Positions 4,798 to 63,354 of a stretch of DNA of 64,000 nucleotides are shown in pieces. The position numbers were made by a program, and so were the translations under genes. Source of the DNA: Bacillus gaemokensis (GTDB lineage: Bacteria; Bacillota; Bacilli; Bacillales; Bacillaceae_G); NCBI RefSeq assembly GCF_001590835.1, contig NZ_LTAQ01000002.1, positions 134,497-198,496 of the forward strand, given 5' to 3'. Each line of letters opens with the position of its first letter. Positions within the stretch are counted from its first letter, which is position 1. The notes beneath the pieces were generated by a model that was not told where the DNA came from, did no database searches, and was given only the letters and a program-made list of their open reading frames with translations.

Positions 4798-6249
4798 TTA
4801 TAATCCTAATGAAATATATTTAATTTCTAAATATTCCTCAATTCCAAAGTGGCCGCCTTCACGGCCAATCCCACTTTCTTTATATCCACCAAATGGCGCT
4901 TGTGCAACTGATGGAAGTCCATCATTTAAGCCAATAATTCCATATTCTAATGCTTCACTAATTTGAAATGCCCGGCTAATGTCTTTTGTAAATACATATG
5001 CCGCTAAACCATATGGTGTATGATTTGCACGTTCAATTACTTCTTCTACAGTTTCAAATTTTGCAACAGGTGCAACTGGCCCGAATGTCTCCTCATTCAT
5101 GCATAACATTGTATCATTTGCTCCTCCAATTACAGTTGGCTCCATAAAATGACCATTTAATTCTGTAATTTTTTGACCTCCGTACAAGACTTCCCCGCCT
5201 TTTTGGATTGCATCTTCAATATGCTCTTGTACTTTCTCTACAGCTACGCTATCAATAAGCGGCCCTACAGTCGTACCTTCTCCAAATCCATCCCCTACCT
5301 TGAGCCCAGCAACTGCTTTTTGAAACTTCTCGACAAACTCTCCATACACCGCCTCTTGTACAAATACTCGATTTGTACATATACATGTTTGACCGGCATT
5401 ACGGAATTTCGAACCAATTACTGCTTCTACAGCTTTTTCTAAATCTGCATCGTTCATCACAATAAATGGAGCATGCCCTCCTAGTTCAAGCGAAACTTTT
5501 TTCATTGTTTGCGCAGCACTGCACATTAATTCTTTTCCAATTTCAGTCGATCCTGTAAATGAAACCTTTCTTACACGCCCATCAGCCATCCACGTGTCAG
5601 CGATTGCCTTTGCACTACCTGTTACAATGTTTAAAACACCTTTTGGAATATCAGCCTCATGTGCTAGCTCAGCTAATTTCAATGCTGTTAGCGGCGTTTG
5701 GCTTGCCGGCTTCACAACTGCTGTACAACCTGCTGCAAGTGCTGGTGCTACTTTTCTTGTAATCATGGCAGCTGGAAAATTCCATGGTGTAATAGCTGCA
5801 ATTACTCCAACTGGCTGTTTCGTCACTAAAATTCGTTTATCTGGGTGAGAAGCTGGAATCATCTCACCATATATTCGCTTTCCTTCTTCCGCATACCATT
5901 CTACAAAACTATTTGCATAGTTTACTTCACCAAGTGCTTCTGCAAATGGCTTTCCTTGTTCTTTTGTCATAATTGCTGCAATCTCTTCTTTATTTTCATC
6001 AATTAATACAAACCACTTTTTCAGCTTTTGTGCACGGTCAGCCGCAGTTAACTTTGACCATGATTTAAAAGCCTCGTGCGCAGCATCTACCGCTTGCTTT
6101 GCCTCAGTAATCCCGCCCTTGGGAACAGTCGCAAATACTTCCTGCGTTGCTGGATTATTAATTTCAATTTTGTCCTGTAGTTGCACCCATTCCCCATTTA
6201 TATACATCGCCTTTTGATTTAAGTTAACATACGTCGCTTTTTTATCCAC
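4798..6249 (-). CDS. gabD: Succinate-semialdehyde dehydrogenase
   Basis: A 483-residue aldehyde dehydrogenase that oxidises succinate semialdehyde to succinate, the last step of the GABA shunt. Visible motifs: PWNFP near 155-159, FTGSTEIGK near 231, catalytic-base segment LELGGHAP near 254-261, and the nucleophile in GQTCICTNR (Cys289), with a second Cys two residues later as in redox-sensitive SSADHs. Translation starts at GTG 6249 behind AAGGAGG and overlaps the end of gabR by 8 bases, implying coupled translation. It forms a gabR-gabD operon. Confidence 0.93.
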   Translation of the reverse strand: MDKKATYVNLNQKAMYINGEWVQLQDKIEINNPATQEVFATVPKGGITEAKQAVDAAHEAFKSWSKLTAADRAQKLKKWFVLIDENKEEIAAIMTKEQGKPFAEALGEVNYANSFVEWYAEEGKRIYGEMIPASHPDKRILVTKQPVGVIAAITPWNFPAAMITRKVAPALAAGCTAVVKPASQTPLTALKLAELAHEADIPKGVLNIVTGSAKAIADTWMADGRVRKVSFTGSTEIGKELMCSAAQTMKKVSLELGGHAPFIVMNDADLEKAVEAVIGSKFRNAGQTCICTNRVFVQEAVYGEFVEKFQKAVAGLKVGDGFGEGTTVGPLIDSVAVEKVQEHIEDAIQKGGEVLYGGQKITELNGHFMEPTVIGGANDTMLCMNEETFGPVAPVAKFETVEEVIERANHTPYGLAAYVFTKDISRAFQISEALEYGIIGLNDGLPSVAQAPFGGYKESGIGREGGHFGIEEYLEIKYISLGL

Positions 6250-7609
6250 TACTTTCTTCCTCCTTTATAAATTTATTAATTTTCCTAGTTGCTGCAGATT
6301 GGCTTATTTTCAAAAACTCTGCTACTTTGTAACTAGATCCATATGTTTTATACGCTTTAAGAATAATATTCTTTTCTACCTCTTCCAGCATTTTGTAGAG
6401 GCTTTGCCCTGATTGTTCAACTGTTGATTTCTGCATAGATAATGGTAAATCTTCTATTGTCACAATATCATCTGCAGTAATTACAATTCTTTCAATCACA
6501 TTTTCTATTTCTCTATTATTCCCTTCCCAAGGATATCCCGTGAACATTTGCAACGTACTAGGAGCCAATTTTACATCTCGCCCATACTTTTCATTAAAGT
6601 GGTGTAAGTAATAATAGACTAAAGGTAAAATATCTTCTGTTCTTTCCCGAAGCGGTGGAATCTGAATAGGAATTACATTTAAACGATAATATAAGTCTTT
6701 TCGGAATGTTCCTTGTTTCACCATTTCAGCTAAATCTCTATTCGTCGCAGCTACAATACGAACATCTACCTTTTTAAGGTCTCTTCCCCCTACTGGGCGA
6801 AATGTTTTTTCCTGTAATACTTGCAGGAGTTTCGCTTGAATTTCAAGTGGCATTTCGCCAATCTCATCTAAGAAAAGAGTACCCTTATGAGCTAGCTCTA
6901 AAATCCCTTTTTTCCCTTCACGATTTGCACCTGTAAATGAACCACCTGAATAGCCAAACAGTTCTGATTCAATTAGATTGGTCGGTAATGCCGCACAATT
7001 AATTTCATAAAACATTTCATTTTTACGATGACTCACTTCATGCAAATGACGTACTAATCTACTTTTCCCAACCCCAGTCTCACCTAAAATAAGAACAGTA
7101 CTATCTACCGCGGAAACTTTTTTGATTGTTACGACTATTTTCTGCATAGCTACACTTTTAAAAATAAGCCCTTCATGTTCATACGTTTCTCTTAACTCTT
7201 TTTTATATGTCTTTAACTGATTATCCATCTCCTCTACCTTTTTTCGTAATTGATAGAGTTCAGTGAGATCACGTGAATAACTTATCACTCTTCGTAAATT
7301 TCCTTGTTCATCAAACACAGGTCTTGTACGAACATGCAAATATTCTCCAGATTTTGTTGTTTGAACAAGTTCTATTGGTTTTTTCTTCTCAATTACTTCC
7401 AGCGTTGCAGACGGATAAAAAACTCCTTCTTTTTGTAACTCTTTTACATGCTTACCAACGAGTTCTTCAGCAGATAACTGATAGTGTCTTTCGCATGTAC
7501 TATTTACACGGACAACCGTCCCTTTCTCATCCGTAACAAAAATCTCATCAAATGCATATTCAAATACATCTTTTAAATCCATGAATGCTCGTTCCTTTTC
7601 TGCAACCAT
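6242..7609 (-). CDS. gabR: Sigma-54-dependent GABA regulator, PAS + AAA+ + Fis HTH
   Basis: A 455-residue bacterial enhancer-binding protein. A PAS sensor (about 10-115) is followed by a short coiled coil, an AAA+ domain with Walker A GETGVGKS (~176-183) and Walker B TLFLDE, and a C-terminal Fis-type helix. The sigma-54 contact loop reads GSFTGA instead of the usual GAFTGA. I chose ATG 7609 because GGGGAG lies 8 bases upstream; GTG 7618 is the alternative. It is cotranscribed with gabD and faces the sigma-54 promoter of gabT. In B. thuringiensis the gab cluster is reported to be sigma-54/GabR dependent (recalled), which this arrangement matches. Confidence 0.9.
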   Translation of the reverse strand: MVAEKERAFMDLKDVFEYAFDEIFVTDEKGTVVRVNSTCERHYQLSAEELVGKHVKELQKEGVFYPSATLEVIEKKKPIELVQTTKSGEYLHVRTRPVFDEQGNLRRVISYSRDLTELYQLRKKVEEMDNQLKTYKKELRETYEHEGLIFKSVAMQKIVVTIKKVSAVDSTVLILGETGVGKSRLVRHLHEVSHRKNEMFYEINCAALPTNLIESELFGYSGGSFTGANREGKKGILELAHKGTLFLDEIGEMPLEIQAKLLQVLQEKTFRPVGGRDLKKVDVRIVAATNRDLAEMVKQGTFRKDLYYRLNVIPIQIPPLRERTEDILPLVYYYLHHFNEKYGRDVKLAPSTLQMFTGYPWEGNNREIENVIERIVITADDIVTIEDLPLSMQKSTVEQSGQSLYKMLEEVEKNIILKAYKTYGSSYKVAEFLKISQSAATRKINKFIKEEESSG

Positions 7610-7925
7610 TTCAGCCACTCCCCAAATTAAACTCCTTTACTTACATTTCATTATAAATTGAAATGATAACTTAAGGGAATTTTCTGTATTTTTAATGAAG
7701 TAAACTAGAATGGTTACAAATATGTTATATATATATCCATTTTTATTTTCCAACATATAAGTCGCTGCTGTGAAGGAGAAAAGGTGACTTGCACTCGTTT
7801 TCTCTCTTTGTTTTAACTTTGCATGGGGCTAAAAAAAGCCCTGACCGCTTCTATCCATGAACGGATTCTCTCTACCACCTAAAAAGCAAGGTTTTATTTT
7901 GGTTTTTCAATTTATATTCTATTAT
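7610..7925. other. gabT-gabR intergenic region
   Basis: About 315 bases containing the end of the gabT transcript and the promoter region of gabR-gabD. A weak GGGCT/AGCCC hairpin at 7826-7841 could end gabT transcription. No gene is seen and I found no convincing -24/-12 element here, which suggests gabRD is read from a different promoter than gabT. Confidence 0.45.
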
Positions 7926-9287
7926 TTACACACGAGCTATATCCGCTTGCTCATAACAAGCTTGCAGAGAATCTTCAATAATCGCAAGTCCCTCCTCTAA
8001 TTGTTCATCCGTAATCACTAGTGGCATTAATACGCGAACTACATTCCCGTATGTTCCCGCAGATAATAAGAGTAATCCACGCTTATTTGCTTCTGCACAT
8101 AAATCTGCTGTTAATGCTTTATCAGGATCTTTTTTTGTACGATCTTTAACAAGTTCAAATGCACACATTGCTCCTAAACCACGCACATCACCAATACAGT
8201 TATATTTGTTTTTCATCTCTTCAAATCGATTCATTACGACTTTTCCTATATGGACAGCTCGATCATTTAATTTTTCTTTTTCTATTACATCAAGAACAGC
8301 TAACGCTGCAGCACATCCTAATGGGCTTCCAGCATATGTTCCACCTAATTCTCCTGGGGCTGATTCATTCATAATTTCTTTTCGGCCAATAACACCGCTA
8401 ATTGGTACTCCTGCTCCTAATGATTTTGAAACAGTAATTAAATCTGGAACTACATCATAATGATCAATTGCAAAATATTTTCCAGTACGGCTAAAGCCAG
8501 TTTGAATTTCGTCAGCTACGAACAAAATGCCATGTTCAGAACAAAGACGGCGTACTTCCTGTACAAATGTTTTGCTTGGAACAATAAAACCACCTTCACC
8601 TTGAACAGGCTCCATGACAACCGCTGCTATGGTTTCCGGGGCAACTTCTGATATTAAAAAGCTCTTAAATTCTTCAATCATAAAGTTATCGTATTGTTCT
8701 TCTGTTAACCCTTCTGGACGACGGTATTCATATGGAAATGGTGCTTTATATACTTCCGAGGCAAATGGACCGAATCCAAATTTATAAGGTTTTACTTTAC
8801 TAGTCATTGTCATAGTCATCAATGTCCGACCATGAAATCCTTTTGAAAATGCAATAATACCAGGTCGTTTCGTATATTTACGGGCAATTTTCACAGCATT
8901 TTCAACTGCTTCAGCACCGCTATTTAAAAATAGTACTTGTTTCTCAAAACTTCCAGGCGCTAACGCAGCAAGCTTCTCTGCTAATTCAATATACGGCTCA
9001 TACATCATGACATTAAAACCAGTATGGATATATTGGTCTACTTGTTTATGAATCGCTTCTTTCACAGCAGGATGACAATGTCCAACGTTAATCGTTCCAA
9101 TTGCTCCTGCAAAATCGATAAATTGATTTCCATCTACATCTGTCACAAGCGCACCATCGGCTGACTGTACGAATGTTGAAATACCATTACTAACGCCCCG
9201 TGGCACAATATTTTGACGGCGTTCTAGCAAAGAAGCTGCTTTTGGCCCTGGAATTTGTTCATTTACTTTAGCAAATTTTGTATTCAT
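7926..9287 (-). CDS. gabT: 4-aminobutyrate aminotransferase
   Basis: A 453-residue class III PLP aminotransferase converting GABA and 2-oxoglutarate to succinate semialdehyde and glutamate. Seen: FIDFAGAIGTINVGHCHP, NSGAEAVENAVKIARKYT, FHGRT, EPVQGEGG, the cofactor Asp in FVADEIQTGFSRTGK, and the Schiff-base Lys in SKSLGAGVP. Start chosen at ATG 9287 (MNTKFAKVNEQ) because GGGAG precedes it; the ATG at 9299 has AAGG with no spacing. It lies alone behind a sigma-54 promoter, with gabR-gabD following in the same direction. Confidence 0.93.
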   Translation of the reverse strand: MNTKFAKVNEQIPGPKAASLLERRQNIVPRGVSNGISTFVQSADGALVTDVDGNQFIDFAGAIGTINVGHCHPAVKEAIHKQVDQYIHTGFNVMMYEPYIELAEKLAALAPGSFEKQVLFLNSGAEAVENAVKIARKYTKRPGIIAFSKGFHGRTLMTMTMTSKVKPYKFGFGPFASEVYKAPFPYEYRRPEGLTEEQYDNFMIEEFKSFLISEVAPETIAAVVMEPVQGEGGFIVPSKTFVQEVRRLCSEHGILFVADEIQTGFSRTGKYFAIDHYDVVPDLITVSKSLGAGVPISGVIGRKEIMNESAPGELGGTYAGSPLGCAAALAVLDVIEKEKLNDRAVHIGKVVMNRFEEMKNKYNCIGDVRGLGAMCAFELVKDRTKKDPDKALTADLCAEANKRGLLLLSAGTYGNVVRVLMPLVITDEQLEEGLAIIEDSLQACYEQADIARV

Positions 9288-9328
9288 CGTTTCTCCCATC
9301 CTTTTTATGCTATTTCTTTTTTCTATAT

Positions 9329-26497: not shown

Positions 26498-27163
26498 TTA
26501 TGATCTACGTAGAAATACTTTAGCAAAATAGTTTCCTAAGTTTTGTGCAATTTGTACAAGAATAATAAGTAATACCACTGTAACGAACATAACGGATGTA
26601 TCAAAACGTTGATAACCATATGTCATTGCTAAATCACCAAGACCGCCACCGCCAACAAGACCAGCAACTGCCGAAAATTCAATTAAACCAACTGTCATAA
26701 ACGTAACCCCTAAAATTAATGGTGCTAGCGCTTCTGGAACGAGAATTTCAAACACAATTCTTAGTGGCGATGCCCCCATCGCTTGTGCTGCTTCAATTAC
26801 TCCCTTTGGCACTGAAACAAGATTCGTTTCAACCATTCTTGCAATTCCAATTGAAGCAACCAGTGTCATTGGGAAGATTGCTGCCGCTGTCCCAATTGTT
26901 GTCCCAATAATCGTACGTGTTAAAGGACTTAAAGCTACTAAAAAGATAATAAATGGAACCGGGCGAATCGTATTAATAATAATATTAAGAATAGAAAAGA
27001 CCAGTTTATTTTCTAAAAAGTTTCCTTTTCTCGTTACATATAGCAGTAAACCTAGAGGTATACCAAGTATTATAGCGAATATAAGGGTTACAATTACCAT
27101 TAAGAGGGTATCCCCTGTTGCATCTAAAATGCGGGGCCAAAATACACTCCAATCAACTCGCAT
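26498..27163 (-). CDS. metP: Methionine ABC transporter permease
   Basis: A 221-residue permease with five predicted helices. The ABC coupling EAA loop (VIEAAQAMGASPLRIVFEILVPEALAPLILG) and the early GIPLGLLLYVT are typical of MetI/MetP. ATG 27163 lies inside the end of metN with AAGGAGG 9 bases upstream; the TTG at 27172 is rejected. It pairs with MetN and MetQ to import methionine. Confidence 0.94.
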   Translation of the reverse strand: MRVDWSVFWPRILDATGDTLLMVIVTLIFAIILGIPLGLLLYVTRKGNFLENKLVFSILNIIINTIRPVPFIIFLVALSPLTRTIIGTTIGTAAAIFPMTLVASIGIARMVETNLVSVPKGVIEAAQAMGASPLRIVFEILVPEALAPLILGVTFMTVGLIEFSAVAGLVGGGGLGDLAMTYGYQRFDTSVMFVTVVLLIILVQIAQNLGNYFAKVFLRRS

Positions 27164-28172
27164 GACCTTCAACCTCCTTCAGTACTACTTGCAGTCTTAG
27201 ATGTTGCAACGCCTTTTGAATTTCTTTCTGCGCACCTTGTAGTTCAACGAGAAGATTTCCAAATAAAACACCTTGCAGCTCAATAATATTTCCATAGAGC
27301 ACATTTACATCTACGTTATAATTTTTAGCGATATACGATAATAACGGCTGACCTGTCTCTTCACCGGTAAAAGTTAAACGGTAAATCTGTCCACCATTTT
27401 GAATTTTCGCTAGAATACTTTCTGGTAAGTGATCGTTAACAACGGAGCGAACAAAATTTTGTGTCGTTTTTGTTTTCGGTTTCGTAAAGACATCAAATAG
27501 TTTTCCTTCTTCAATCACCTTTCCTTTTTCCATAACGGCTACGCGGTGACAAATTTCTTTCACAACCTGCATTTCATGTGTAATGAGAAGGATTGTTAAA
27601 TTATATTCTCGGTTCACCTTTTTTAATAGATTCAAAATTTCTGTTGTTGTTTCAGGATCCAGTGCAGACGTTGCTTCATCACAAATGAGAATATCCGGTG
27701 ATGTAGCAAGTGCTCTTGCAATCCCAACGCGTTGTTTCTGACCACCCGATAATTGCTCTGGATAGTAGTTTGCTTTATCCTCTAATCCAACAAACTTCAA
27801 CAGCTCATTTACTCTTTCTTTTATCTCACCCTTTGGTAATTTTGCTAATTTCAATGGATAAGCAATATTTCCAAACACTGTTCTTGAATTGAATAAATTA
27901 AAGCTTTGAAAAATCATTCCGATTCGTTGTCTTAACTTTCGTAATTCTTTTGTTGTTAACGACGTAATGTCTTTATCATCTATTGAAATCGTTCCTGCTG
28001 TTGGTCGTTCTAACATATTTACTAAACGTAACAGTGTACTTTTTCCAGCTCCACTAAAACCAATGATGCCAAAAATTTCACCCTTTTCAACAGATAATGT
28101 TACGCCCTCAACAGCATGAACTGTTTTCCCACCTGATTCATATACTTTGCTTACATTTTCAAAAGAAATCAT
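27153..28172 (-). CDS. metN: Methionine ABC transporter ATPase
   Basis: A 339-residue ATPase. Walker A GFSGAGKST (~38-46), Q-loop GMIFQSFNLF, signature LSGGQKQRVGIARAL, Walker B ILICDEATSALDP and the switch His (LLITHEM). The C-terminal ~100 residues (IYRLTFTGEETGQPLLSYI ... EIQKALQHL) form the NIL/ACT-like domain that senses methionine and inhibits transport. ATG 28172 follows AGGAGGG; the longer frame upstream runs through the riboswitch and is not used. First gene of the operon. Confidence 0.95.
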   Translation of the reverse strand: MISFENVSKVYESGGKTVHAVEGVTLSVEKGEIFGIIGFSGAGKSTLLRLVNMLERPTAGTISIDDKDITSLTTKELRKLRQRIGMIFQSFNLFNSRTVFGNIAYPLKLAKLPKGEIKERVNELLKFVGLEDKANYYPEQLSGGQKQRVGIARALATSPDILICDEATSALDPETTTEILNLLKKVNREYNLTILLITHEMQVVKEICHRVAVMEKGKVIEEGKLFDVFTKPKTKTTQNFVRSVVNDHLPESILAKIQNGGQIYRLTFTGEETGQPLLSYIAKNYNVDVNVLYGNIIELQGVLFGNLLVELQGAQKEIQKALQHLRLQVVLKEVEGHAS

Positions 28173-28215
28173 TTTTTTCCCTCCTATGTGCTGTAACAAC
28201 TTGAAGCAGAGCCTT

Positions 28216-28402
28216 GAGGTAAAATAAAAAGTGCTCTCCTTCTTATCCGTAATAAAAGATAAGAAGAAGAGCACTTATATACTCATTCACATCTTCTCAT
28301 CTTCCAAGCTTATATATAAGCTTGCTGGAGTTAGCACGGTATTAAAAAACCCGTTGCTGAGGTATCATAGGGCCAGTCCCTCCACCTCTCTGGATAAGAG
28401 TG
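28216..28402 (-). promoter_or_regulatory. SAM-I (S-box) riboswitch with terminator
   Basis: On the minus strand the leader has CTTATC pairing with GATGAG (P1), GAGGTGGAGGGACTGGCCC, then ATGATACCTCAGCAACGGG and CCGTGCTAACTCC, the conserved S-box core. A terminator hairpin (AGTGCTCT..CTTCTTATC, plus strand 28230-28275) with a U-rich tail follows before metN. Binding of S-adenosylmethionine should end transcription early, shutting down methionine import. Confidence 0.95.
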
Positions 28403-30717: not shown

Positions 30718-32265
30718 TTATAATGTTTCAGAAGTAGTTTTTGCCTGCATGTGAAGTGATAAGTAATCAGGTCCACCCGCTTTAGAGTCTGTACCAGACA
30801 TGTTAAAGCCACCGAATGGTTGGTAACCTACGATTGCACCAGTACATCCACGGTTGAAGTATAAGTTACCAACGTGGAAGTCTTCACGTGCTTTTTCGAT
30901 ATGTTCACGGTTATTAGAAACAACAGCTCCTGTTAAACCATATTCTGTATTATTTGCAATTGCAAGCGCATGATCAAAGTCTTTTGCTTTGCAGAATGCT
31001 ACTACTGGTCCGAAGATTTCTTCTTTCATTAAGCGAGCGTCTTCTGCAACGTCAGCAACGATTGTTGGTTGGATGAACCATCCTTTAGAATCATCACCTT
31101 CGCCACCTGCTACAATTTTACCTTCTTCTTTACCAATTGCAACGTAGCTCATTACTTTATCGAATGCAGCTTGGTCATTAACTGGTCCCATATTTAAGCC
31201 TTGCTCAGCTGGGTTACCTACAGTTAATTCTTTTGTTAATTCAACAGCACGGTTTAATACATAATCGTATACATCTTCGTGAATTACAGCACGAGAACAA
31301 GCAGAACATTTTTGTCCTGAGAATCCAAATGCTGATGCAACGATAGATTTTGCTGCTAATTCAAGATCTGCTTCTTTATCAACAACGATTGTATCTTTAC
31401 CACCCATTTCAGCGATAACACGTTTCAACCAAATTTGGCCTGGTTGTACTTTTGCTGCACGTTCGTAAATACGAATACCTACTTCTCTTGATCCAGTGAA
31501 GCTAACAAAACGTGTACGAGGATGATCTACTAAGTAGTCACCAACTTCAGAACCGCTACCAGGGATGAAGTTTACTACACCTGCAGGTAGTCCCGCTTCT
31601 TCTAATACTTCCATAAATTTCGCTGCTACTACAGGTGTTGTACTAGCTGGTTTTAGTAATACTGTGTTACCAGAAACTACAGCAGCTGTTGTCATCCCCG
31701 CCATAATTGCGAATGGGAAGTTCCAAGGAGAAATGATAACACCTACTCCTAATGGAATGTAAGAGAAACGATTATATTCAATTGGACGGCTTTCTACTGG
31801 AATACCGTCTTTTAATTTCAACATTTGACGACCATAATATTCCATAAAGTCGATTGCTTCTGCTGTATCAGCATCTGCTTCATTCCATGGTTTACCTGCT
31901 TCTTTTACAAGAATAGCAGAAAACTCATGTTTTCTACGACGAACAATTGCTGCAGCACGGAATAAAATGTCTGCACGCATTTCTGGTTTTGACTTTCTCC
32001 AAGTTTGGAATGTTTCATCCGCCACTTGCATTGCTTTTTCAGCTAATTCACGGCTTGCTTTGGAAACACGACCAACAACTTCTTCTTTATTTGCAGGGTT
32101 TACAGAAACGATTTTCTCGTCTGTAGTGATCTTTTCTCCCCCGATAAGTAATGGATAGTCTTGTCCAAGATAAGATTCTACTGTCTTTAAACCTTCTTCA
32201 AACGCCAACTTGTTAGCCTCTACTGAAAAATCTGTAAATGGCTCATGTTTGTATGCTACTACCAT
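30718..32265 (-). CDS. rocA: 1-pyrroline-5-carboxylate dehydrogenase
   Basis: A 515-residue aldehyde dehydrogenase that oxidises glutamate semialdehyde to glutamate, the shared last step of arginine and proline breakdown. Motifs: SPWNFPFAI (~179), FTGSREVG (~256), AEMGGKD (Glu286) and nucleophile Cys320 in [12 protein letters not shown]. The N-terminal extension [22 protein letters not shown] and length are typical of the RocA/PutC type rather than general ALDHs. Single gene with a terminator; a near-consensus CcpA site lies just upstream. Confidence 0.94.
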
Positions 32266-42129: not shown

Positions 42130-43014
42130 TTAGGAATATTTACAATTCCCCTTTTCTTCTATGCTATAAAGCAATTTAATAAACCCACATAATGCTGCTG
42201 TTTTCACACTATCTTTCCGATAAATAAAGTACGTTGGAATAAATCTATTCTCGTTTTGTAAAGGTATACGAAGAAGCTCTTGTTGAAAGTCAAACTGCTC
42301 CGCAACTTCTTTTGGAAGTAGAGCAACCCCAAGCCCAGCTTTGACACAGCCCACAATACCATCCAAAGAGTTTAACTCCATCAATTTTCGCGGAACAACA
42401 CCTTCGGATAATAACCATTCTTCTAATACCTTTCTATAAAAACAACCAGATTGGAAAACAATAAAAGACTGATCCGCCATATACTTATGATCCAATAAAA
42501 AACTTCTCTTCGACATTAACATCATTTCCTCTTGAAATACTTCTATCTTTTCTAATGCCGGATCATCAATGCTATTCGCTACAAAAGCCCCTTCTAATTC
42601 ATGTAAAAGTATTTTTTTTGTTAATTCTCCTGTACTATTCGTTTGTAACATAATCTCGACTTCAGGATATTGTGCATGAAAATTAGAAAGAATAGCTGGC
42701 AATCTAACTGCCGCTGCAGTTTCCATCGCTCCGATCTTGAGCATTCCTCCTGGTAAATTCGTATATTTTATCTCTCTCTTTGACTCATTCAATATTTGAA
42801 TCATTTTCTCAGCGTATGTTAACAGTTTTTCTCCTGCAGGCGTTAATGTCATTCCATTTCTATGGCGATAAAATAACTGTGTTTCGTATTCTGCTTCTAA
42901 CCTTTTTATTTTTGCCGTTATATTGGATTGGACAAAATTAAGCCTAGTTGCTGCTTTCGAAATACTTTTCTCTTGCGCAACCATATAAAATGCGACAAAA
43001 TCTTGTAAATTCAT
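42130..43014 (-). CDS. LysR-family transcriptional regulator
   Basis: A 294-residue LysR-type regulator. The N-terminal helix-turn-helix (FVAFYMVAQEKSISKAATRLNFVQSNITAKIKRLEAEYETQLFYRHRNGMTLTPAGE) is followed by a ligand-binding domain (LKIGAMETAAAVRLPAILSNFHAQYPEVEIML). It is divergent from the MFS gene, the usual arrangement for regulating it. A possible LysR box ATC-N9-GAT (T-N11-A) lies at 43038-43052 between them. Ligand unknown. Confidence 0.9.
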   Translation of the reverse strand: MNLQDFVAFYMVAQEKSISKAATRLNFVQSNITAKIKRLEAEYETQLFYRHRNGMTLTPAGEKLLTYAEKMIQILNESKREIKYTNLPGGMLKIGAMETAAAVRLPAILSNFHAQYPEVEIMLQTNSTGELTKKILLHELEGAFVANSIDDPALEKIEVFQEEMMLMSKRSFLLDHKYMADQSFIVFQSGCFYRKVLEEWLLSEGVVPRKLMELNSLDGIVGCVKAGLGVALLPKEVAEQFDFQQELLRIPLQNENRFIPTYFIYRKDSVKTAALCGFIKLLYSIEEKGNCKYS

Positions 43015-43137
43015 ATTTCTCCTGTCCTTTCATTCGTATCACTATTTTTGATATCACGTATTAAAAAACAGTATTTTACTCCTTCTGTACATTTCCCTAT
43101 CATATGTATTAGAAACTGTTTCAAGAAGGGAGATTAC

Positions 43138-44337
43138 ATGAACGAAACGAAAACGTGGAAAATAATTTCATCTGGTATATTTGCACTAGTAGCCGTAATG
43201 GGAATTAGTCGCTTTGCCTATACACCTATTATCTCTTTTATGGAAAAACAAGCTCATGTTGAAGATGACCTCGCTGGATATTTAGCTTCCAGTAACTACC
43301 TTGGCTATTTACTCGGTGCATTCTTCATCGGGTTTGTTACAATAAAAAATCGTGAAAAATTGTTACATCATTGTTTATTTCTTAATATCCTCTCAACTCT
43401 TTCTATGGGATTTACCTCATATATTTTCTTATGGTTTCCACTTCGATTTATTGGTGGTTTTACAAGTGCCATCGTATTTGTTCTTGCTTCTAGTATTGTT
43501 TTAGATTATTTATTTCATCGGAATAAGGTTGTACTAAGTGGGATGATTTATAGTGGTGTTGGCATCGGAATTATTTTAGCTGGATTATTCGCTCCTTTAT
43601 TAAACTCCATTTGGTATTGGCATGGTGCTTGGATTGGATTAGGCCTTATTAGCTTTAGTTTAGCTATTTTTGTATGGAAATGGTTAAAAGAGGATACTAG
43701 ACATACAATACAAAAATTAAAAGCTACTTCAATAAATACCGCACATAGAAAAAACTATTTATTTTGGCTCATTTTAGCTTATGGATTTGAAGGATTTGGC
43801 TATATTATTACCGGAACCTTTCTTGTCACCATTGTAGAGAGAATTACTCTATCTCCCTTTTATGCATCTTGTAGCTGGATTATTGTTGGTATCGCCGTCA
43901 TTCCATCTAGTTATATTTGGTCAAACATTGCTCAAAAGTATGGAACAACACGAGCTCTTATCTCCGCCTACTTTTTACAAATTATAAGCGTTCTCTCCCC
44001 ACTCCTTATTCCCAACGTAATCGGAGCATTTTTGAGTGCTTTTCTTCTCGGAGCGACATTCGTAGGAATCACCATTTTAACAACGACAGAAGCAAAAAGA
44101 ATCAAACCAAATGAAAGTAATAAAATTATCGGTTATACAACTGGAATTTATGGTATTGGACAAATTATTGGACCAATCTTTACAGGTATCATCGCAAAAC
44201 AAACACAAAACTTCTATCTTCCACTCATTGGCGCTGCACTTACATTGGTTATTTCTATTGTTCTGTTGTTGATTGGCGAATTAAAATGTAGACAGGTTCA
44301 TGGTAAACGAACTTATATAGATACAAACAGATTATAA
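43138..44337 (+). CDS. YbfB/YjiJ-family MFS transporter
   Basis: A 399-residue, 12-helix major facilitator. The opening (ISSGIFALVAVMGISRFAYTPIISFM) and YLASSNYLGYLLGAF match the YbfB/YjiJ subfamily; the GVGIGIILAG and YGIGQIIGPIFTG segments are typical transport helices. ATG 43138 is taken because GGGAG precedes it; the longer upstream frame crosses the LysR promoter. Probably an efflux pump controlled by the divergent LysR protein; substrate unknown. Confidence 0.87.
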   Translation: MNETKTWKIISSGIFALVAVMGISRFAYTPIISFMEKQAHVEDDLAGYLASSNYLGYLLGAFFIGFVTIKNREKLLHHCLFLNILSTLSMGFTSYIFLWFPLRFIGGFTSAIVFVLASSIVLDYLFHRNKVVLSGMIYSGVGIGIILAGLFAPLLNSIWYWHGAWIGLGLISFSLAIFVWKWLKEDTRHTIQKLKATSINTAHRKNYLFWLILAYGFEGFGYIITGTFLVTIVERITLSPFYASCSWIIVGIAVIPSSYIWSNIAQKYGTTRALISAYFLQIISVLSPLLIPNVIGAFLSAFLLGATFVGITILTTTEAKRIKPNESNKIIGYTTGIYGIGQIIGPIFTGIIAKQTQNFYLPLIGAALTLVISIVLLLIGELKCRQVHGKRTYIDTNRL

Positions 44338-44469: not shown

Positions 44470-46041
44470 TCAAATTAATTCCGGTAACTGCACCTTCTTC
44501 TGATACGCTCTCCATGTAATACACCACTTTTTCGGATTATCGAGAAAATCTTGTTCATCTAATTTATGGATGGTACTATTTTGCGGGGCGTTTTGAATAA
44601 CTTCAGGTTTTTCATAGGCTTCCTTCGAAACTTGCTCAAGAGCTGCAATATACTCATCCAAATCAGCCTTAGAGTAGCTTTCTGTCGGTTCAAGCGTAAA
44701 CGGCTGAGGTACGATATATGGGTGGTGACTGGTCCAATAGTGTAAGCCGAAATCCGCCATTCTTCTTTGGACATCTTCTGTTGTAATACCAGTTTCATTT
44801 TTCATCTCTTCCCAGCTATAACGAACTTGTTCAAGACGCTGTCCTTTCACATATGGAGCACTTGCACCACGAATCTTTTGTACTTTGTGATACATATAGT
44901 TGTTATTTAGCACAGCGGTTTTCGCCACTTCTTTTAATCCATCTGGACCAAGAGCACGAATCCATGCATAAGATCTTAGAATTGTTTGCGCTACCCCATG
45001 AAAAGCGCGTACTTTCCCAATAGAATGTTTCAAGCCATTGTTTAAATAATATTTCCCCTCATCATACTCGACAATTGGTCCTGGTAAATATTCTTTTAAC
45101 TCTTTGCTCACACCAAGTGCACCTGTTGCGGGCCCACCACACATATGCGGAGCAGCAAATGTTTTATGAAGGTTAAAGAAACACATATCAAATCCTGCTT
45201 CTTTTGCTCTAGTAATTCCAAGGAGGCCATTCGCATTTGCCTGATCATAGTAACAAATCCCACCAGCTTCATGTACGACCTTTGTAAATTCTTTAATTTT
45301 CGAATTAAAAATCCCTGTATCTTCAGGATTTGCAACAACGAAACCTGCCGTCCGCTCCGAAACAACTGCCTTTAACTTTTCAAGATCAGGAAATCCATCT
45401 TCATCCGGATGAAGTGTAATGATTTTAAATCCTTTGACGGCTGCTGTGGCTGCTTGCGAAGGATGAGAAAAAATGGTTGTAATAATTTCATTCCGTTTTT
45501 CCCCTTCCCCTCGAGATTCATGATATTTTCTTACAATGGAAGCCATGGCAAATAATGCTTGCGTGCCACCACTCGGCTGAAATGAAAAGTGATCCATACC
45601 AGAGATTTCTCTCATACAAAGATCCAATTTATATATGATTTCTAACATCCCTTGAACCGTACTTTCATCTTGAAGAGGATGCAGTTCCATTATTTTAGGA
45701 CTTCGTACTAACAATTCATTGATTTTTGGGATATATTTCATCGTGCAAGTACCTTGCCCAATCTCAACGTTAAAATCTGATCCTAACGTTTCTTGCGAAA
45801 GCCTGACATAGTGTCTTAGCACACGCGCCTGACCAATTTCCGGAAGTTTCGGTCTTTCTTTTCTATACATAGAACTAGGAATCTTCGAAACTCCATCTCC
45901 AACTTCCTTCACAATTGTTTGATCCACTAATGGAATCTCCACTCCTCTTTCTCCCTGCTGATGAAGCTCAAAAATAATTGGCTCATTCCATTTTGCTTGA
46001 TGAAAGTCACGAACTTGACTATTCCTTTTAATTTTTTTCAT
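44470..46041 (-). CDS. Divergent glycine dehydrogenase P-protein, subunit 2 paralogue (GcvPB-like)
   Basis: A 523-residue PLP enzyme related to the beta half of glycine decarboxylase. The fold and cofactor Lys are kept (NLHKTFAAPH, Lys293; GTCTMKYIPKINEL, ~98-110). However, motifs I recall as near-invariant in true GcvPB are altered: PAAGAHGE reads PSGGTQAL (~157-164), SAHGTNPAS reads FSHPSQAAT (~191-199), and the glycine-rich loop after the Lys reads HMCGGPATGA. ATG 46041 is chosen because AAAGGAG precedes it. Third gene of a sigma-54 operon with a subunit-1 paralogue and an SDR. No GcvH or GcvT gene is near, so the substrate may not be glycine. Confidence 0.85.
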   Translation of the reverse strand: MKKIKRNSQVRDFHQAKWNEPIIFELHQQGERGVEIPLVDQTIVKEVGDGVSKIPSSMYRKERPKLPEIGQARVLRHYVRLSQETLGSDFNVEIGQGTCTMKYIPKINELLVRSPKIMELHPLQDESTVQGMLEIIYKLDLCMREISGMDHFSFQPSGGTQALFAMASIVRKYHESRGEGEKRNEIITTIFSHPSQAATAAVKGFKIITLHPDEDGFPDLEKLKAVVSERTAGFVVANPEDTGIFNSKIKEFTKVVHEAGGICYYDQANANGLLGITRAKEAGFDMCFFNLHKTFAAPHMCGGPATGALGVSKELKEYLPGPIVEYDEGKYYLNNGLKHSIGKVRAFHGVAQTILRSYAWIRALGPDGLKEVAKTAVLNNNYMYHKVQKIRGASAPYVKGQRLEQVRYSWEEMKNETGITTEDVQRRMADFGLHYWTSHHPYIVPQPFTLEPTESYSKADLDEYIAALEQVSKEAYEKPEVIQNAPQNSTIHKLDEQDFLDNPKKWCITWRAYQKKVQLPELI

Positions 46042-46070
46042 GAGTTGGTTCTCCTTTCTGTTCATCTTTT

Positions 46071-47459
46071 TTAATTCGACACAACCTCTTGAAGAGCATC
46101 AATTAACCGATCAAGCTCTTCCTTCGTATGTACTTCCGTAACGCAATATAAAGCACATTGACCAAATATAGGAAATTCTTTTAAAATATCCTTTCCTCCA
46201 AATATTTGTTTTTCTAATAATCTCTTATTTATTATTTCTACTGATAAACCAGTCTCATTAAAATCGACAAGAAATTCTTTAAAGAATGGAGAACTTAATC
46301 TTGAACCTCTCACTCCAGGAGTTTTGTTCAGTTGTTTCACTGCATATTGACTATTTTGCATAATCGTTTGACCTAATTCATACATGCCATTCGGTCCAAG
46401 TAACGATAAATAGACCCCAGCTGTAATACCCCATAACGCTGTTTGTGTACCAACTGATTCTTTTCCTTTTTCACGAAGTGCAAAAGATGTCCTGTCATAA
46501 GCTACATCACCAAAGCCGTACTCTCCTTCTTTTACTGTTGGCATAATTCCAAATAGACGTGAAGGATATTCACTAATAAACTTTTCTTCATCTCTTGTAG
46601 CAATAAATCCCGCTTGCCCTCCGCTATAGTTCATATGCATACCAAGTGGCTGCAAATCACCACAAACAATATCTGCTTGATAGTGACTTGGCGGTGCCAA
46701 TACTCCAAGCGACATAGGATCAACACCAACAACAACTAGTACATCGGACTGATTCGCAATTCCCGCAATTTCCATACCTTGTGATTCAATAAAACCTAAA
46801 TAAGACGGGTTTTCAAAATAAATTGCTGCTGTATCAGAAGATATCTTATTCTTTAAATCTTCTAAATCAAGGAGACCATTGTCAGCGTCATAACCGACAA
46901 AAACAAATTCAAGATCTGGAGACCCATAATTTCGAATAATTTTCATCCTTTCTGGTGATATGGTTTTCGCCACTAATACCTTTGTTCTTTTTGTTATACG
47001 AGCAGCCATTCTAATTGATGTAGCCGCTGCTTGCCCCCAATCAAACGTCGGCACATTTACAACATCCATATCAACAAGTTCAGCTACTAAACTTTGATAT
47101 TCAAATAATGCTTGGAATCTACCATGATCCTCATAAGGTTCACCAGCATATGCCGTTAGAAATTCAGATCGTTGATTTACTTCATCACAAACTGCTGGTA
47201 TAAAATGTTGCCAACAACCTGCTCCTAGAAAATTTAGATATTCATTTGTACTCGTATTTTTACACAATATCCCCTCAATATGGCGACGCAATTCGTATTC
47301 CGTCAGTGCCTTTGGAATGTTCATTTCATCTTTCAACTTTAGTTCATCCGGTATACAGGCGTATAATTCCATCACTGATTCAGCATCTATTTCTTTTAAC
47401 ATCTCTTTCTTTACTTCAGGTACCATATTTGGAATGTAAGGATGTACCTTTTTCGTCAT
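46071..47459 (-). CDS. Divergent glycine dehydrogenase P-protein, subunit 1 paralogue (GcvPA-like)
   Basis: A 462-residue partner of the subunit-2 paralogue, clearly homologous to GcvPA (KALTEYELRRHIEGI, FLGAGCWQHFIPAV, SEFLTAY, QALFEYQSLVAELVDMDVVN). It differs at places that line the active site in canonical enzymes: the TPYQPEISQG segment reads AGEPYEDHGRF, and SMYDGATALAEA reads PTFDWGQAAATS. In the two-subunit enzyme, subunit 1 completes the cofactor pocket. The gene ends 29 bases before the chosen subunit-2 start and lies 30 bases after the SDR. It starts behind AGGGGG. Confidence 0.85.
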   Translation of the reverse strand: MTKKVHPYIPNMVPEVKKEMLKEIDAESVMELYACIPDELKLKDEMNIPKALTEYELRRHIEGILCKNTSTNEYLNFLGAGCWQHFIPAVCDEVNQRSEFLTAYAGEPYEDHGRFQALFEYQSLVAELVDMDVVNVPTFDWGQAAATSIRMAARITKRTKVLVAKTISPERMKIIRNYGSPDLEFVFVGYDADNGLLDLEDLKNKISSDTAAIYFENPSYLGFIESQGMEIAGIANQSDVLVVVGVDPMSLGVLAPPSHYQADIVCGDLQPLGMHMNYSGGQAGFIATRDEEKFISEYPSRLFGIMPTVKEGEYGFGDVAYDRTSFALREKGKESVGTQTALWGITAGVYLSLLGPNGMYELGQTIMQNSQYAVKQLNKTPGVRGSRLSSPFFKEFLVDFNETGLSVEIINKRLLEKQIFGGKDILKEFPIFGQCALYCVTEVHTKEELDRLIDALQEVVSN

Positions 47460-47489
47460 CGTAATACCCCCTTATTAAAATCAATTCAA

Positions 47490-48266
47490 TTATGCTAAAC
47501 CTCCACCATCAACAACAAGTTCCGTTCCTGTCACCCAAGATGACAAATCGCTAGCTAAAAATAAAACACCTTTTGCAATATCACGAGGCGTACCAATTTT
47601 TGATAAAGGTCGATCTGTTGCTGATTCTTTCAAAAATGTACCCTCTTCTACATGTAATTGCTTCGCCTCATCACGTAATAACTGTGTATCTGTATCACCT
47701 GGACATATGCAATTCACTCGAATATTTTGTGGACCATGGTCAATTGCCATTGCTTTCGTTAAATTCACAACACCGGCCTTCGCAGCACAATAAGCCGCGG
47801 CTTTATCTCCTCCTTTTAGTCCCCATCCAGAACCTGTATTAATAATGCTCCCACCTTGCTTTTCAGCCATAATTGGAATGATATATTTAGATAAGAGGTA
47901 CACACCTTTTAATGAAACATTAATAACTGAATCCCATTCTCTTTCCTCTAATTCAACAACTGTTTTTCTTCTAATGATGCCTGCATTATTAAACAGCACA
48001 TCAACGTTTCCATACACTCTTCTAATATGCTCACTAACCTTTTTGCAATCTAGTTCACTTGTTACATCGCATTTCAAAAATTCTGCTTGCCTTCCCTCAT
48101 CTCGTAAACTCTGTGCGGCCTGCATACCTTTTTCTTCATCAATATCTAAAAGAAGGACGGTAGCTCCTACTTCAGCAAAAATAGTTGCGGTCGCATACCC
48201 AATCCCTGATGCCGCTCCAGTCACAACTGCTACTTTATCCTTTAATTGAAAATAATCTCTTTCCAT
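47490..48266 (-). CDS. Short-chain dehydrogenase/reductase
   Basis: A 258-residue SDR. The cofactor site is TGAASGIG (16-23), acidic Asp41 at the end of strand 2 suggests NAD(H) preference, NNAG is at 93-96, and the catalytic Ser-Tyr-Lys set is Ser146, Tyr159, Lys163 (AAYCAAK). C-terminal LASDLSSWVTGTELVVDGG is typical of classical SDRs of the FabG/GDH type. It is the first gene of the sigma-54 operon; the -24/-12 promoter is 37-54 bases upstream. Probably oxidises or reduces a metabolite upstream of the P-protein-like enzyme. Confidence 0.9.
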   Translation of the reverse strand: MERDYFQLKDKVAVVTGAASGIGYATATIFAEVGATVLLLDIDEEKGMQAAQSLRDEGRQAEFLKCDVTSELDCKKVSEHIRRVYGNVDVLFNNAGIIRRKTVVELEEREWDSVINVSLKGVYLLSKYIIPIMAEKQGGSIINTGSGWGLKGGDKAAAYCAAKAGVVNLTKAMAIDHGPQNIRVNCICPGDTDTQLLRDEAKQLHVEEGTFLKESATDRPLSKIGTPRDIAKGVLFLASDLSSWVTGTELVVDGGGLA

Positions 48267-48302
48267 AAAAAAACTCCTTTATTCGCATCTACTATTTATT
48301 AA

Positions 48303-48319
48303 GCAAAAAGCATGCCAAC
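48303..48319 (-). promoter_or_regulatory. Sigma-54 (-24/-12) promoter of the SDR/P-protein operon
   Basis: Minus strand TTGGCATGCTTTTTGCTT, with GG and GC exactly 10 bases apart, a near-perfect sigma-54 element. The divergent gene encodes the activator type needed. Confidence 0.88.
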
Positions 48320-48369
48320 TTCATCACATGATAAACCCTTGCTACAACAAGTACTCTCTCTATGAGCAA

Positions 48370-48403
48370 TTGACACTTTTGACAACCTTTTGACACTTTT
48401 TGA
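48370..48403. promoter_or_regulatory. TGACA repeats, candidate activator binding sites
   Basis: TGACA occurs at 48371, 48380 and 48391 with a further TGA at 48401, each in a TTTTGACA-like context and 9-11 bases apart. They lie 55-85 bases upstream of the sigma-54 promoter, the right distance for enhancer sites, and also overlap the likely -35 region (TTGACA) of the divergent regulator gene, allowing autoregulation. Confidence 0.55.
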
Positions 48404-48453
48404 TTTTTCGGAATTACCATACAATAAAACTATAAAAGAAGGGAGGATTTAAC

Positions 48454-49860
48454 TTGTCCACGATCACAGCAATCACAAAAATTATTCATACATTTGCCGA
48501 GCTGTTACAAATAGAAATCGCCTATTTCAATCATGAAGGACTATTAATTTCTTCAACACAAGAATATAAAAAAAAGAAAGGAGAGCGTGTATACCTCCCC
48601 TTTTTCCAAAAGCTCTATGAACATCCTATTACCTTTGTACATAAACCAGGGCATATGAATATGTGTCATGGTTGTCATTTTCAAAAAAGCTGTCCATCAA
48701 CTGCGGAAATTATACAAAATATGATTCAAAATGAATGCCACTACGGCTATCTTTCATTCGTTAGTTTTTCAAAAGACAAGCAACAGAAATTAATCGATCA
48801 ACAAAAAGAATTTATCTATTGGATGGAAAAATTAAAAGGGATTATTACCGAAATTATTCATGAAACCAATTATTCTACTTCCAAAATAGGAACAAAATTA
48901 AAACAAACTGATTATATCCTTGGAAACAGCTATACATTGCAAAACATAAAAGAAATCTTAAGGAATATGAAAAGTAGTACCTCCTCTATCGTTATTACAG
49001 GGGAAACAGGGACTGGAAAAAGCTTACTGGCAAAACTTATTCATGAACAAAGCATATTTCAAAGGGGCGATTTTGTTGAAATAAATTGTGCTAGTATTCC
49101 TGAATCTTTATTCGAAAGTGAACTCTTTGGTTATGAGGAAGGTGCATTTACGGGAGCAAGAAAAAAGGGAAAGCCAGGTTACTTTGAAATGGCTGATCGA
49201 GGAACACTATTTTTAGACGAAATTGCCGATCTCCCTCTCCATTTACAGCCAAAATTATTGAAAGTACTGCAAGATGGTGTTGTACAAAGAATTGGTGGAA
49301 CACTTCCTAAAAAAGTTAATGTCCGGATTATCACTGCATCCAATCAATCATTACAAAAATTGATGAAAGCTAAACAATTCCGTTCGGACCTTTACTACAG
49401 ACTAAATGTTATTCCTATCCACTTGCCACCATTAAGAGAACGAAAAGAAGACTTTACGAAACTAGTTCCCTTCTTAATTGAAAAATTACAAACAAGAACA
49501 GGAAAATTCATTCAAACTCATACAGATGACTTCTTAGAAAAGTTAAAGCAATATCACTGGCCGGGGAACATTCGTGAATTGGAGAATATTATTGAATACG
49601 GTATGAATATGGAGAAGAGCGGAAAATTAACAAAATCATCATTACCAGAATTTCTACAAAATAATTCAACTTCACTATATGCACCTTCAAAGCAACACGG
49701 TGCATTACAAGAAGCTGAAAAAGAGAGTATTATTCAAAAGCTTCATTATTACGGTTATGATTATGAAGGAAAAAAGCAGGCTGCCGCTGCTTTAGGAGTT
49801 AGTGTGCGAACATTGTATAGAAAGATGGAGAAGCTCGGGATTTCAGGATCAACTAGATAG
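48454..49860 (+). CDS. Sigma-54-dependent regulator with Cys-rich sensor domain
   Basis: A 468-residue enhancer-binding protein. The N-terminal domain (1-140) has cysteines at 71, 74, 80 and 95 in CHGC....SC and NECHYG, suggesting a metal, Fe-S or PocR-like ligand site. The AAA+ domain has Walker A GETGTGKS (183-190), intact GAFTGA (230-235) and Walker B TLFLDE (251-256). A Fis-type HTH ends it (KKQAAAALGVSVRTLYRKMEKLG). Translation starts at TTG behind GGGAGG. Divergent from the SDR/P-protein operon, which carries a sigma-54 promoter, so it almost certainly activates that operon. Confidence 0.9.
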   Translation: MSTITAITKIIHTFAELLQIEIAYFNHEGLLISSTQEYKKKKGERVYLPFFQKLYEHPITFVHKPGHMNMCHGCHFQKSCPSTAEIIQNMIQNECHYGYLSFVSFSKDKQQKLIDQQKEFIYWMEKLKGIITEIIHETNYSTSKIGTKLKQTDYILGNSYTLQNIKEILRNMKSSTSSIVITGETGTGKSLLAKLIHEQSIFQRGDFVEINCASIPESLFESELFGYEEGAFTGARKKGKPGYFEMADRGTLFLDEIADLPLHLQPKLLKVLQDGVVQRIGGTLPKKVNVRIITASNQSLQKLMKAKQFRSDLYYRLNVIPIHLPPLRERKEDFTKLVPFLIEKLQTRTGKFIQTHTDDFLEKLKQYHWPGNIRELENIIEYGMNMEKSGKLTKSSLPEFLQNNSTSLYAPSKQHGALQEAEKESIIQKLHYYGYDYEGKKQAAAALGVSVRTLYRKMEKLGISGSTR

Positions 49861-63163: not shown

Positions 63164-63330
63164 GCCTGAAATAGAACATTTTCTCTTTTACTATGAGAGA
63201 AAGTGCTCTACTCAGGCATACGTATCCCTTGTGAATAGAAAAATACCGAGTGACTTTCCCTCATAGTCTAACGAATAACGGTCGTTAGGTAGAGACTTGC
63301 AGGCCATATCCCCGCGATTATATGAGGTGC
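63164..63330 (-). promoter_or_regulatory. Guanine riboswitch with terminator
   Basis: Minus strand carries CACCTCATATAATCGCGG, GGATATGGCCTGCAAGTCTCTACC and the J3/1 segment GACTATGAGG (aptamer about 63258-63330). The C in GACTATG marks guanine rather than adenine specificity. A long terminator hairpin (GCCTGA...TCAGGC, 63164-63217) with a T-run follows. Guanine or hypoxanthine binding should stop transcription before purE. Confidence 0.95.
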
Positions 63331-63354
63331 GATATAATATTGTTTCTATGGCTA

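Follow-up and report, generated by a model that had tools for sequence, protein, structure and literature searches.

The closest described relative of the genes considered here is the split P-protein of the glycine cleavage system (GCS), which is formed by GcvPA and GcvPB and represented by the Thermus thermophilus entry 1WYT. Two other systems provide partial parallels. In the threonine dehydrogenase/Kbl couple, a dehydrogenase makes an amino ketone that is then cleaved by a pyridoxal-phosphate (PLP) enzyme. In Bacillus subtilis, the SigL/RocR system of arginine and ornithine catabolism places an amino-acid catabolic operon under a sigma-54 activator. The locus described here lies in a 64,000-nucleotide stretch of Bacillus gaemokensis DNA (contig NZ_LTAQ01000002.1; the whole stretch is hereafter called the window). 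It encodes a short-chain dehydrogenase/reductase (SDR), a pair of proteins homologous to GcvPA and GcvPB (PA and PB, the variant pair) and a divergent sigma-54 activator. By sequence comparison, the pair was shown to be a heterodimer descended from the split P-protein that forms a group apart, with its PLP residues kept and its active-site positions rebuilt. It probably carries out a different reaction on an amino acid.

The variant pair shares with the split P-protein its sequence family, its two subunits, the PA-PB gene order and the PLP lysine, Asp and His. Unlike the split P-protein, it occupies a separate group in trees, has replaced active-site residues, occurs in nine genomes in which GcvH and GcvT were not found, and is partnered by SDR, AcoX and sugar or amino-acid uptake genes. 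The likeness to threonine dehydrogenase and Kbl is one of analogy; that couple uses another PLP family and is CoA-dependent. The window operon also differs from the SigL/RocR system in its enzymes and in its activator, whose N-terminal 149 residues gave no Pfam match. The operon runs in the order SDR, PA, PB on the minus strand (44470-48266), divergent from the activator gene, with gaps of 5 bases between PB and PA, 30 between PA and SDR and 187 between SDR and activator. The features are as follows.

44470..46065, minus strand: GcvPB-like subunit carrying the PLP lysine, 531 aa; open reading frame (ORF) with matches to NF003346 and 1wyt_B
46071..47459, minus strand: GcvPA-like subunit, 462 aa; ORF with matches to NF001696 and 1wyt_A, carrying the clade-specific D111-H112-G113-R/K114
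47490..48266, minus strand: SDR-family oxidoreductase, 258 aa, first gene of the operon; ORF with domain and family matches
48303..48318, minus strand: sigma-54 -24/-12 promoter TTGGCATGCTTTTTGC (GG-N10-GC), ending 36 bases before the SDR start codon
48371..48395, minus strand: putative upstream activator site with three TGTCA repeats
48454..49860, plus strand: divergent sigma-54 activator (AAA+, GAFTGA, HTH_8) with a Cys-rich N-terminal domain

These ORFs are those proposed in an initial annotation of the same DNA, which had placed the SDR first, followed by GcvPA and GcvPB homologues, opposite a sigma-54 activator. That annotation had also noted no gcvH, gcvT or lipoylation gene in the window. 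A tblastn search of the window with seven GcvT, GcvH and LplA queries gave no match at E 0.01; the search covered no other lipoylation genes.

By curated family models, both subunits are named genuine GcvPA and GcvPB. PB scores 580.9 bits against NF003346, over the equivalog cut-off of 441 (1wyt_B, E=2e-86), and PA scores 487.1 bits against NF001696, over the cut-off of 364 (1wyt_A, E=3e-60). The NCBIfam names are echoed in plasmid relatives of the variant pair, which carry the annotation gcvPA/gcvPB. Canonical copies are about 30-36% (PA) and 36-41% (PB) identical to the window proteins; for the variant relatives on plasmids of Rhodococcus, Sphingomonas, Rhodobacterales and a haloarchaeon the figure is about 40-49%. 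Alignments and trees were built from ORFs 400-620 aa long that reached a blast score of 130 or more, with identical sequences entered once and each row labelled variant or canonical according to whether it scored higher in blast against the window or against Thermus. The trees drew on one in four of the variant rows from loci L001-L080 and on those of L081-L088 and L149 onwards, and re-fetched copies were omitted. In these midpoint-rooted trees, in which several rows (L177, L178, L179, Thermus and others) were flagged for long branches, variant and canonical rows were split by a 100/100 branch for both PA (50 and 20 rows) and PB (54 and 23 rows), and the split was present in 100% of bootstrap trees. 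The window pair falls outside the canonical P-protein clade in both trees, and the motifs typical of that clade are retained in its canonical members, so that the earlier proposal that this is not an ordinary P-protein stands. The variant clade is widespread and misannotated as GcvPA/GcvPB. No paper on the clade, or on a part played by it in breaking down hydroxylysine, was among the matches listed from open-licence PubMed Central papers. A separate observation concerns a Deinococcus plasmid (L177, 3555-8347), where MOSC and class-III aminotransferase genes come after gcvPA/gcvPB of the canonical group; no gcvH or gcvT is annotated in that 8-kb stretch.

The active site has been both conserved and altered. 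The PLP lysine K301, together with D274 and H201, which we take to be the Asp and His of the PLP pocket, is present in all 111 variant PB sequences, in line with the lysine noted earlier in the window. The motif changes listed in the initial annotation were all seen in the window proteins: in PB, PAAGAHGE to PSGGTQAL, SAHGTNPAS to FSHPSQAAT and the glycine loop to HMCGGPATGA; in PA, TPYQPEISQG to AGEPYEDHGRF and SMYDGAT to PTFDWGQ. Across the clade the conservation of these positions varies. PB P202 occurs in 110/111 variants and the loop glutamine Q169 in 88/111 (His is retained in 14), and PA D111 and H112 occur in 113 and 104 of 114; M308 of PB is found in only 61/111. Variant-specific substitutions in the alignment are numerous. 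In human GLDC, Y161, Y164, T894 and W897 are labelled as active site (PMC7259800). When these positions were matched by motif spacing, the Y164 site was deleted in 114/114 variants, the Y161 site was still Tyr in 107/114, and the W897 site was non-aromatic (His in 102/111, Glu in 9/111). The Thermus residues Y405 and F406 are replaced by H447 (111/111) and H448 (102/111). The variants have gained D111-H112-G-R/K114 in PA and S446-H447-H448 in PB, and the changed residues with the gained Asp, His and Arg/Lys would be in keeping with another leaving group or another acceptor. AlphaFold monomers of the two subunits were poor (mean predicted local distance difference test scores 52.0 and 64.4, with alignments of 19 rows) and were set aside.

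The genome content around the variant was examined in 45 genomes: 19 reached through loci and 29 in a second set, with three shared. The second set consisted of 27 variant-bearing genomes out of 398 scanned from the phylum of G018, plus G011 and G015. Sixteen of the first 19 genomes carry GcvH, GcvT and a canonical GcvPA (in two pieces in G012), and none of the three was found in G011, G015 or G018. In the 29-genome set, GcvH was not found in G011, G015, G018, G043, G262, G303, G338 or G339, and G086 gave a single match of 20 bits, below the cut-off; the other 20 have GcvH. GcvT was not found in G018, G043, G086, G262, G303, G338 or G339 and was present in the other 18 of 25; with G011 and G015, which also gave no match, it was absent from nine of the 43 genomes tested (G085 and G213 were outside this test). 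The seven GcvT-negative genomes have only variant-scoring GcvPA, at no more than 499.3 bits, vs 637-692 bits for intact canonical copies, and in G011 and G015 the score is at most 499.8 bits. In the same nine genomes of the 45, GcvH at cut-off, GcvT and canonical GcvPA thus went undetected, the three absences being concordant in all nine, and the remaining tested genomes carry both GcvH and GcvT. The lipoate/octanoate ligase family was not found in five of the 29 (G018, G043, G086, G303, G339). All nine GCS-negative genomes yielded ribosomal protein L10, and the record for G011 (locus L040) is titled a complete genome. Because GcvH, GcvT and canonical GcvPA were not found in these nine genomes, the pair cannot feed the usual GCS there. 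It is very likely that in these genomes the variant pair works independently of H and T, a view first drawn from the window and here supported at genome level (9/45).

Neighbouring genes were counted in the 80 closest of 131 confirmed loci, mostly from Bacilli. With the ORF caller used, a PB-like ORF was recovered in 78 of these and a PA-like ORF in 79. An SDR is present in 75/80 and lies just before PA in the same direction in 73. A LacZ-type beta-galactosidase occurs in 48/80 loci, a GH63/MGH1-like glycosidase in 20, an AcoX-like kinase in 6, and an amino-acid ATP-binding cassette (ABC) binding protein and an M20 peptidase-domain protein, presumably RocB-like, in 11 each. As a matched control, fifteen windows of 17-19.5 kb around canonical GCS genes were compared with the variant loci of the same 15 genomes. 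LacZ, GH63, LysP, SDR, AcoX and the activator were found in none of the canonical windows, and galT in one. The variant loci had SDR in 15, activator in 9, LacZ in 5, GH63-like, galK, galT and AcoX in 3 each and LysP in 2. Among 50 more diverse loci, of which 49 had core genes (L176 had none in reach), the AcoX-like ATP-NAD kinase was present in 32 and the SDR family in 30. A role for this kinase as one dedicated to the substrate was set aside in view of its presence in only 6 of the 80 closest loci. The kinase lies directly upstream of PA-PB on plasmids of Rhodococcus, Sphingomonas and four Rhodobacterales, and not in the haloarchaeon.

Individual loci give more specific hints of substrate. 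In L155, from the GcvH-less genome G338, a YgjK-type GH63 (E 6e-120), a galactokinase, PB, PA, SDR and a LacZ fragment lie in one run. A 52%-identical YgjK relative accompanies LacZ in L061, galK and galT lie just upstream of SDR-PA-PB in L021 and L024, and the permease beside the pair in L001 had as its sole PDB match at 1e-15 the Lysine-specific permease (E=5e-188). The Bacilli glycosidase neighbour (c10) matches YgjK only distantly (E 2e-11) and is equally near TTHA0978 (1.6e-12) and a mycobacterial hydrolase (2e-9), so that no specificity was assigned to it; the close YgjK relatives among the loci examined are those of L155 and L061. Likewise, no ligand was assignable to the polar-amino-acid binding protein, all NCBIfam matches being below cut-off. 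In clostridial relatives the neighbours further include APC-type permeases (8), DUF436 proteins (7), response regulators (7) and histidine kinases (4), and the one clostridial histidine kinase scanned has a PocR domain. The DUF436/TIGR01440 (YwlG-type) genes stand beside the pair in 7/50 loci (for example L170 14741-15304, L164 4450-5010 and L161 2333-2890), with family membership confirmed for the L170 protein. The function of this family is presented as unsettled (PMC9522360, PMC6522883). A match to Rfam PYLIS_2, the pyrrolysine insertion element of mtbB, was also seen in a variant-cluster locus (L159 13045-13144, 50.9 bits).

Transcriptional control in part of the clade has been linked to sigma-54. 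The window activator carries Sigma54_activat, AAA lid and HTH_8 domains and the GAFTGA motif. Among the 73 loci with a co-directional SDR just before PA, a -24/-12 site (score at least 8 of 10) was found in 24/24 that carry the activator vs 3/49 that do not, and the mean chance of such a site in letter-shuffled regions was 0.015. In L078 the site precedes the SDR start, as called, by 225 bases; in six loci it lies within the ORF as called, which is taken to reflect over-long ORF calls. TGTCA/TGACA boxes numbered 70 in 26 upstream regions (25 loci and the window), vs a mean of 6.7 and a maximum of 13 in 300 shuffles, and averaged 0.28 in 164 other upstream regions of the same loci. Some loci have few boxes (none in L078; one each in L022, L069 and L072). 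Sigma-54 control, guessed earlier from the activator, is well supported in activator-carrying loci. The activator family occurs in only 26/80 loci, so that conservation of all four genes together is clade-specific.

Glycine riboswitches have been found in another part of the clade. An Rfam scan covered 34 variant loci in four batches of 8, 7, 9 and 10. In six of them (L160, L161, L162, L163, L166, L175) a glycine riboswitch lies upstream of variant PA in the same orientation, and any ORF in between is shorter than 120 aa. None precedes PA in the other 28, and none was found in the window at the gathering score; for comparison, 6/7 canonical loci have one. In the leader of L161, and at the upstream aptamer pair of L160, the aptamer 3' end GGACAGAG serves as the 5' arm of a strong terminator hairpin, which is also the layout of the canonical gcv leaders of L184, L185 and L188. 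This arrangement is described as an ON switch in B. subtilis (PMC5666159). A weaker version is seen in L166, and the expression platforms of L162, L163 and L175 could not be read clearly. No GCS was found in the riboswitch-bearing genomes G303 (L160) and G086 (L175). In L173 a glycine riboswitch precedes transporter-like genes with a transposase-like ORF between. In L078 one lies about 4 kb from the variant cluster, ahead of another gene, which we presume to be GrdX-type.

Canonical GCS and lipoate-type genes adjoin the variant in L161, L163, L166 and L173. These runs (in L161, 10431-14482) also contain two radical S-adenosylmethionine (SAM) genes that by eye are lipoyl-synthase-like, an LplA-like gene and a dihydrolipoyl dehydrogenase-like gene. 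Several glycine aptamers are stacked before one operon between the canonical GCS and variant operons in L166 (6585-7421) and L161 (9685-10185).

What reaction might such a pair catalyse? PLP-dependent cleavage of a carbon-carbon bond is likely. As a whole, the reading favoured here, to which we give slightly less than even confidence, is non-lipoyl aminomethyl-PLP chemistry in a catabolic operon, with hydroxylysine as the best guess of substrate. The pair would still form the P-protein's aminomethyl-PLP carbanion, though lipoyl-H would not be its acceptor. In the window, as in related loci of Bacilli, the genes would form a catabolic operon, switched by sigma-54 where the activator is present, for a glycosylated or free hydroxy-amino acid that is imported, possibly the 5-hydroxylysine of collagen. 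Attached sugars, where present, would be removed by the GH63-type and LacZ-type hydrolases. The SDR may then oxidise the hydroxyl beside the terminal amine to give H2N-CH2-C(=O)-R, a mimic of glycine; glycine and this amino ketone would offer PLP the same end. The pair would cut the bond beside the aminomethyl group to release R-COO- (glutamate in the case of hydroxylysine), and the aminomethyl unit would leave as methylamine or be carboxylated to glycine.

The choice of hydroxylysine follows from gene neighbours. YgjK favours Glc-alpha1,2-Gal. It has been crystallised with glucose and lactose (PMC7263609), and Glc-alpha1,2-Gal on hydroxylysine is described as the collagen unit (PMC8626586). 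An amino acid bearing Gal or Glc-Gal, combined with a lysine-type carrier, points to 5-hydroxylysine. Glycosidases and galK/galT adjoin the pair in some loci and might act on collagen glycans. That hydroxylysine itself is the substrate in Bacilli is, in our judgement, less likely than not. Galactosyl-hydroxyproline, sphingosine and amino-sugar acids were set aside as substrates by reasoning alone.

Several observations weigh against this reading. The most telling neighbours occur in a minority of loci, with the LysP-like permease, galK and galT found in only three of the 80 each, and no sugar genes adjoin the operon in the window. No methylamine- or glycine-handling gene consistently adjoins the pair. 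The carriers beside it are of many kinds (APC, polar-amino-acid ABC, CUT1, oligopeptide ABC, TTT, TRAP and SSS, several assigned by eye), and because they vary so widely there may be no single substrate. Most of the genomes are drafts of unstated completeness, and several may be metagenome bins. GcvH passes the cut-off in 36 of the 45 variant genomes, two of which, G116 and G230, carry a second gcvH downstream of their variant operon. These last facts, with the equivalog scores of both subunits, would fit an ordinary extra P-protein that uses the host GcvH when present. Such a role is very improbable given the nine genomes without GcvH at cut-off, GcvT or canonical GcvPA, five of which gave no lipoate-attaching ligase family, and given the active-site residues replaced throughout the clade. 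The glycine riboswitches present a different difficulty, since hydroxylysine alone gives no explanation for them. Because they precede variant PA, glycine is substrate, product or signal in part of the clade, which counts against a pure hydroxylysine reading.

The same riboswitches speak for an enzyme dedicated to glycine clade-wide, which would decarboxylate it without H-protein, either to methylamine or onto an aldehyde or acyl acceptor; by the acceptor route an amino alcohol or amino ketone would result, to be handled by the SDR and the AcoX-like kinase. The ON-switch architecture in L160 and L161, the riboswitch-led variant in G303 and G086 despite the lack of a detected GCS, and the canonical GCS genes beside the variant in four loci are all consistent with this proposal. 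We nevertheless regard it as rather unlikely, as no riboswitch was found in the window or upstream of PA in 28/34 loci, canonical active-site positions are changed, and the LacZ, GH63, galK, LysP-like permease and sigma-54 control of the Bacilli would be left unexplained. A plain alpha-decarboxylase of a hydroxy-amino acid, converting hydroxylysine to 1,5-diamino-2-pentanol with the SDR oxidising the amino alcohol, would accord with the alpha-decarboxylation that is ancestral to P-protein, with the adjoining SDR and amino-acid carriers, and with the SGGTQ loop, which resembles the PLP-phosphate loop of fold-type-I decarboxylases. A catabolic operon would gain little carbon or energy from such a reaction, the glycine riboswitches would be left unexplained, and we consider it unlikely. 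A more unifying scheme, which we judge improbable, is a free-standing PLP aminomethyl carboligase that exchanges the aminomethyl carbanion with a carbon partner (aldehyde or acyl) and CO2. Glycine and R-CHO (or R-COOH) would be interconverted with an amino alcohol or amino ketone and CO2. Bacilli would run the reaction from hydroxylysine to glutamate and glycine, and clostridia with glycine riboswitches would start from glycine. If true, this scheme would account for the SDR, the sugar genes, the LysP-like permease, the glycine riboswitches and the missing H-protein.

Other features of the window were noted in passing. At 42130-44337, a LysR regulator (PtrR-like, 230 bits, below the cut-off of 400) is divergent from a YbfB-type MFS transporter gene, which is convergent with the SDR-PA-PB operon. 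At 4798-9299, genes that by eye we take to encode a gamma-aminobutyrate-type aminotransferase, a PAS-type regulator and a semialdehyde dehydrogenase follow one another, and these may make up another regulated operon for amino-acid catabolism. An ORF at 30718-32265 resembles L-glutamate gamma-semialdehyde dehydrogenase (RocA-like, by eye), and a relative of this enzyme near the variant cluster of L174 was confirmed (TIGR01237, 731 bits). An ABC transporter ATPase ORF (27153-28274) is preceded by a SAM riboswitch (28294-28400), and a purine riboswitch (63244-63345) lies upstream of genes that by eye are purine-type.

The variant pair has consequences for how genomes are read. Because it passes the curated GcvPA/GcvPB equivalog cut-offs, genome-based claims of a GCS can err. 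In Atribacterota, gcvPA and gcvPB are given as reductive-glycine genes (PMC11227167). Calls of a GCS or a reductive glycine pathway from annotation can be wrong in organisms that carry only the variant pair. The glycine riboswitches ahead of the variant, in genomes with no detected GCS, provide a direct handle for testing its function. As a natural P-protein apparently freed from lipoyl-H, the variant would be useful for studying acceptor choice, and it may supply a step that is missing from the degradation of a hydroxy-amino acid, be it collagen hydroxylysine or another.

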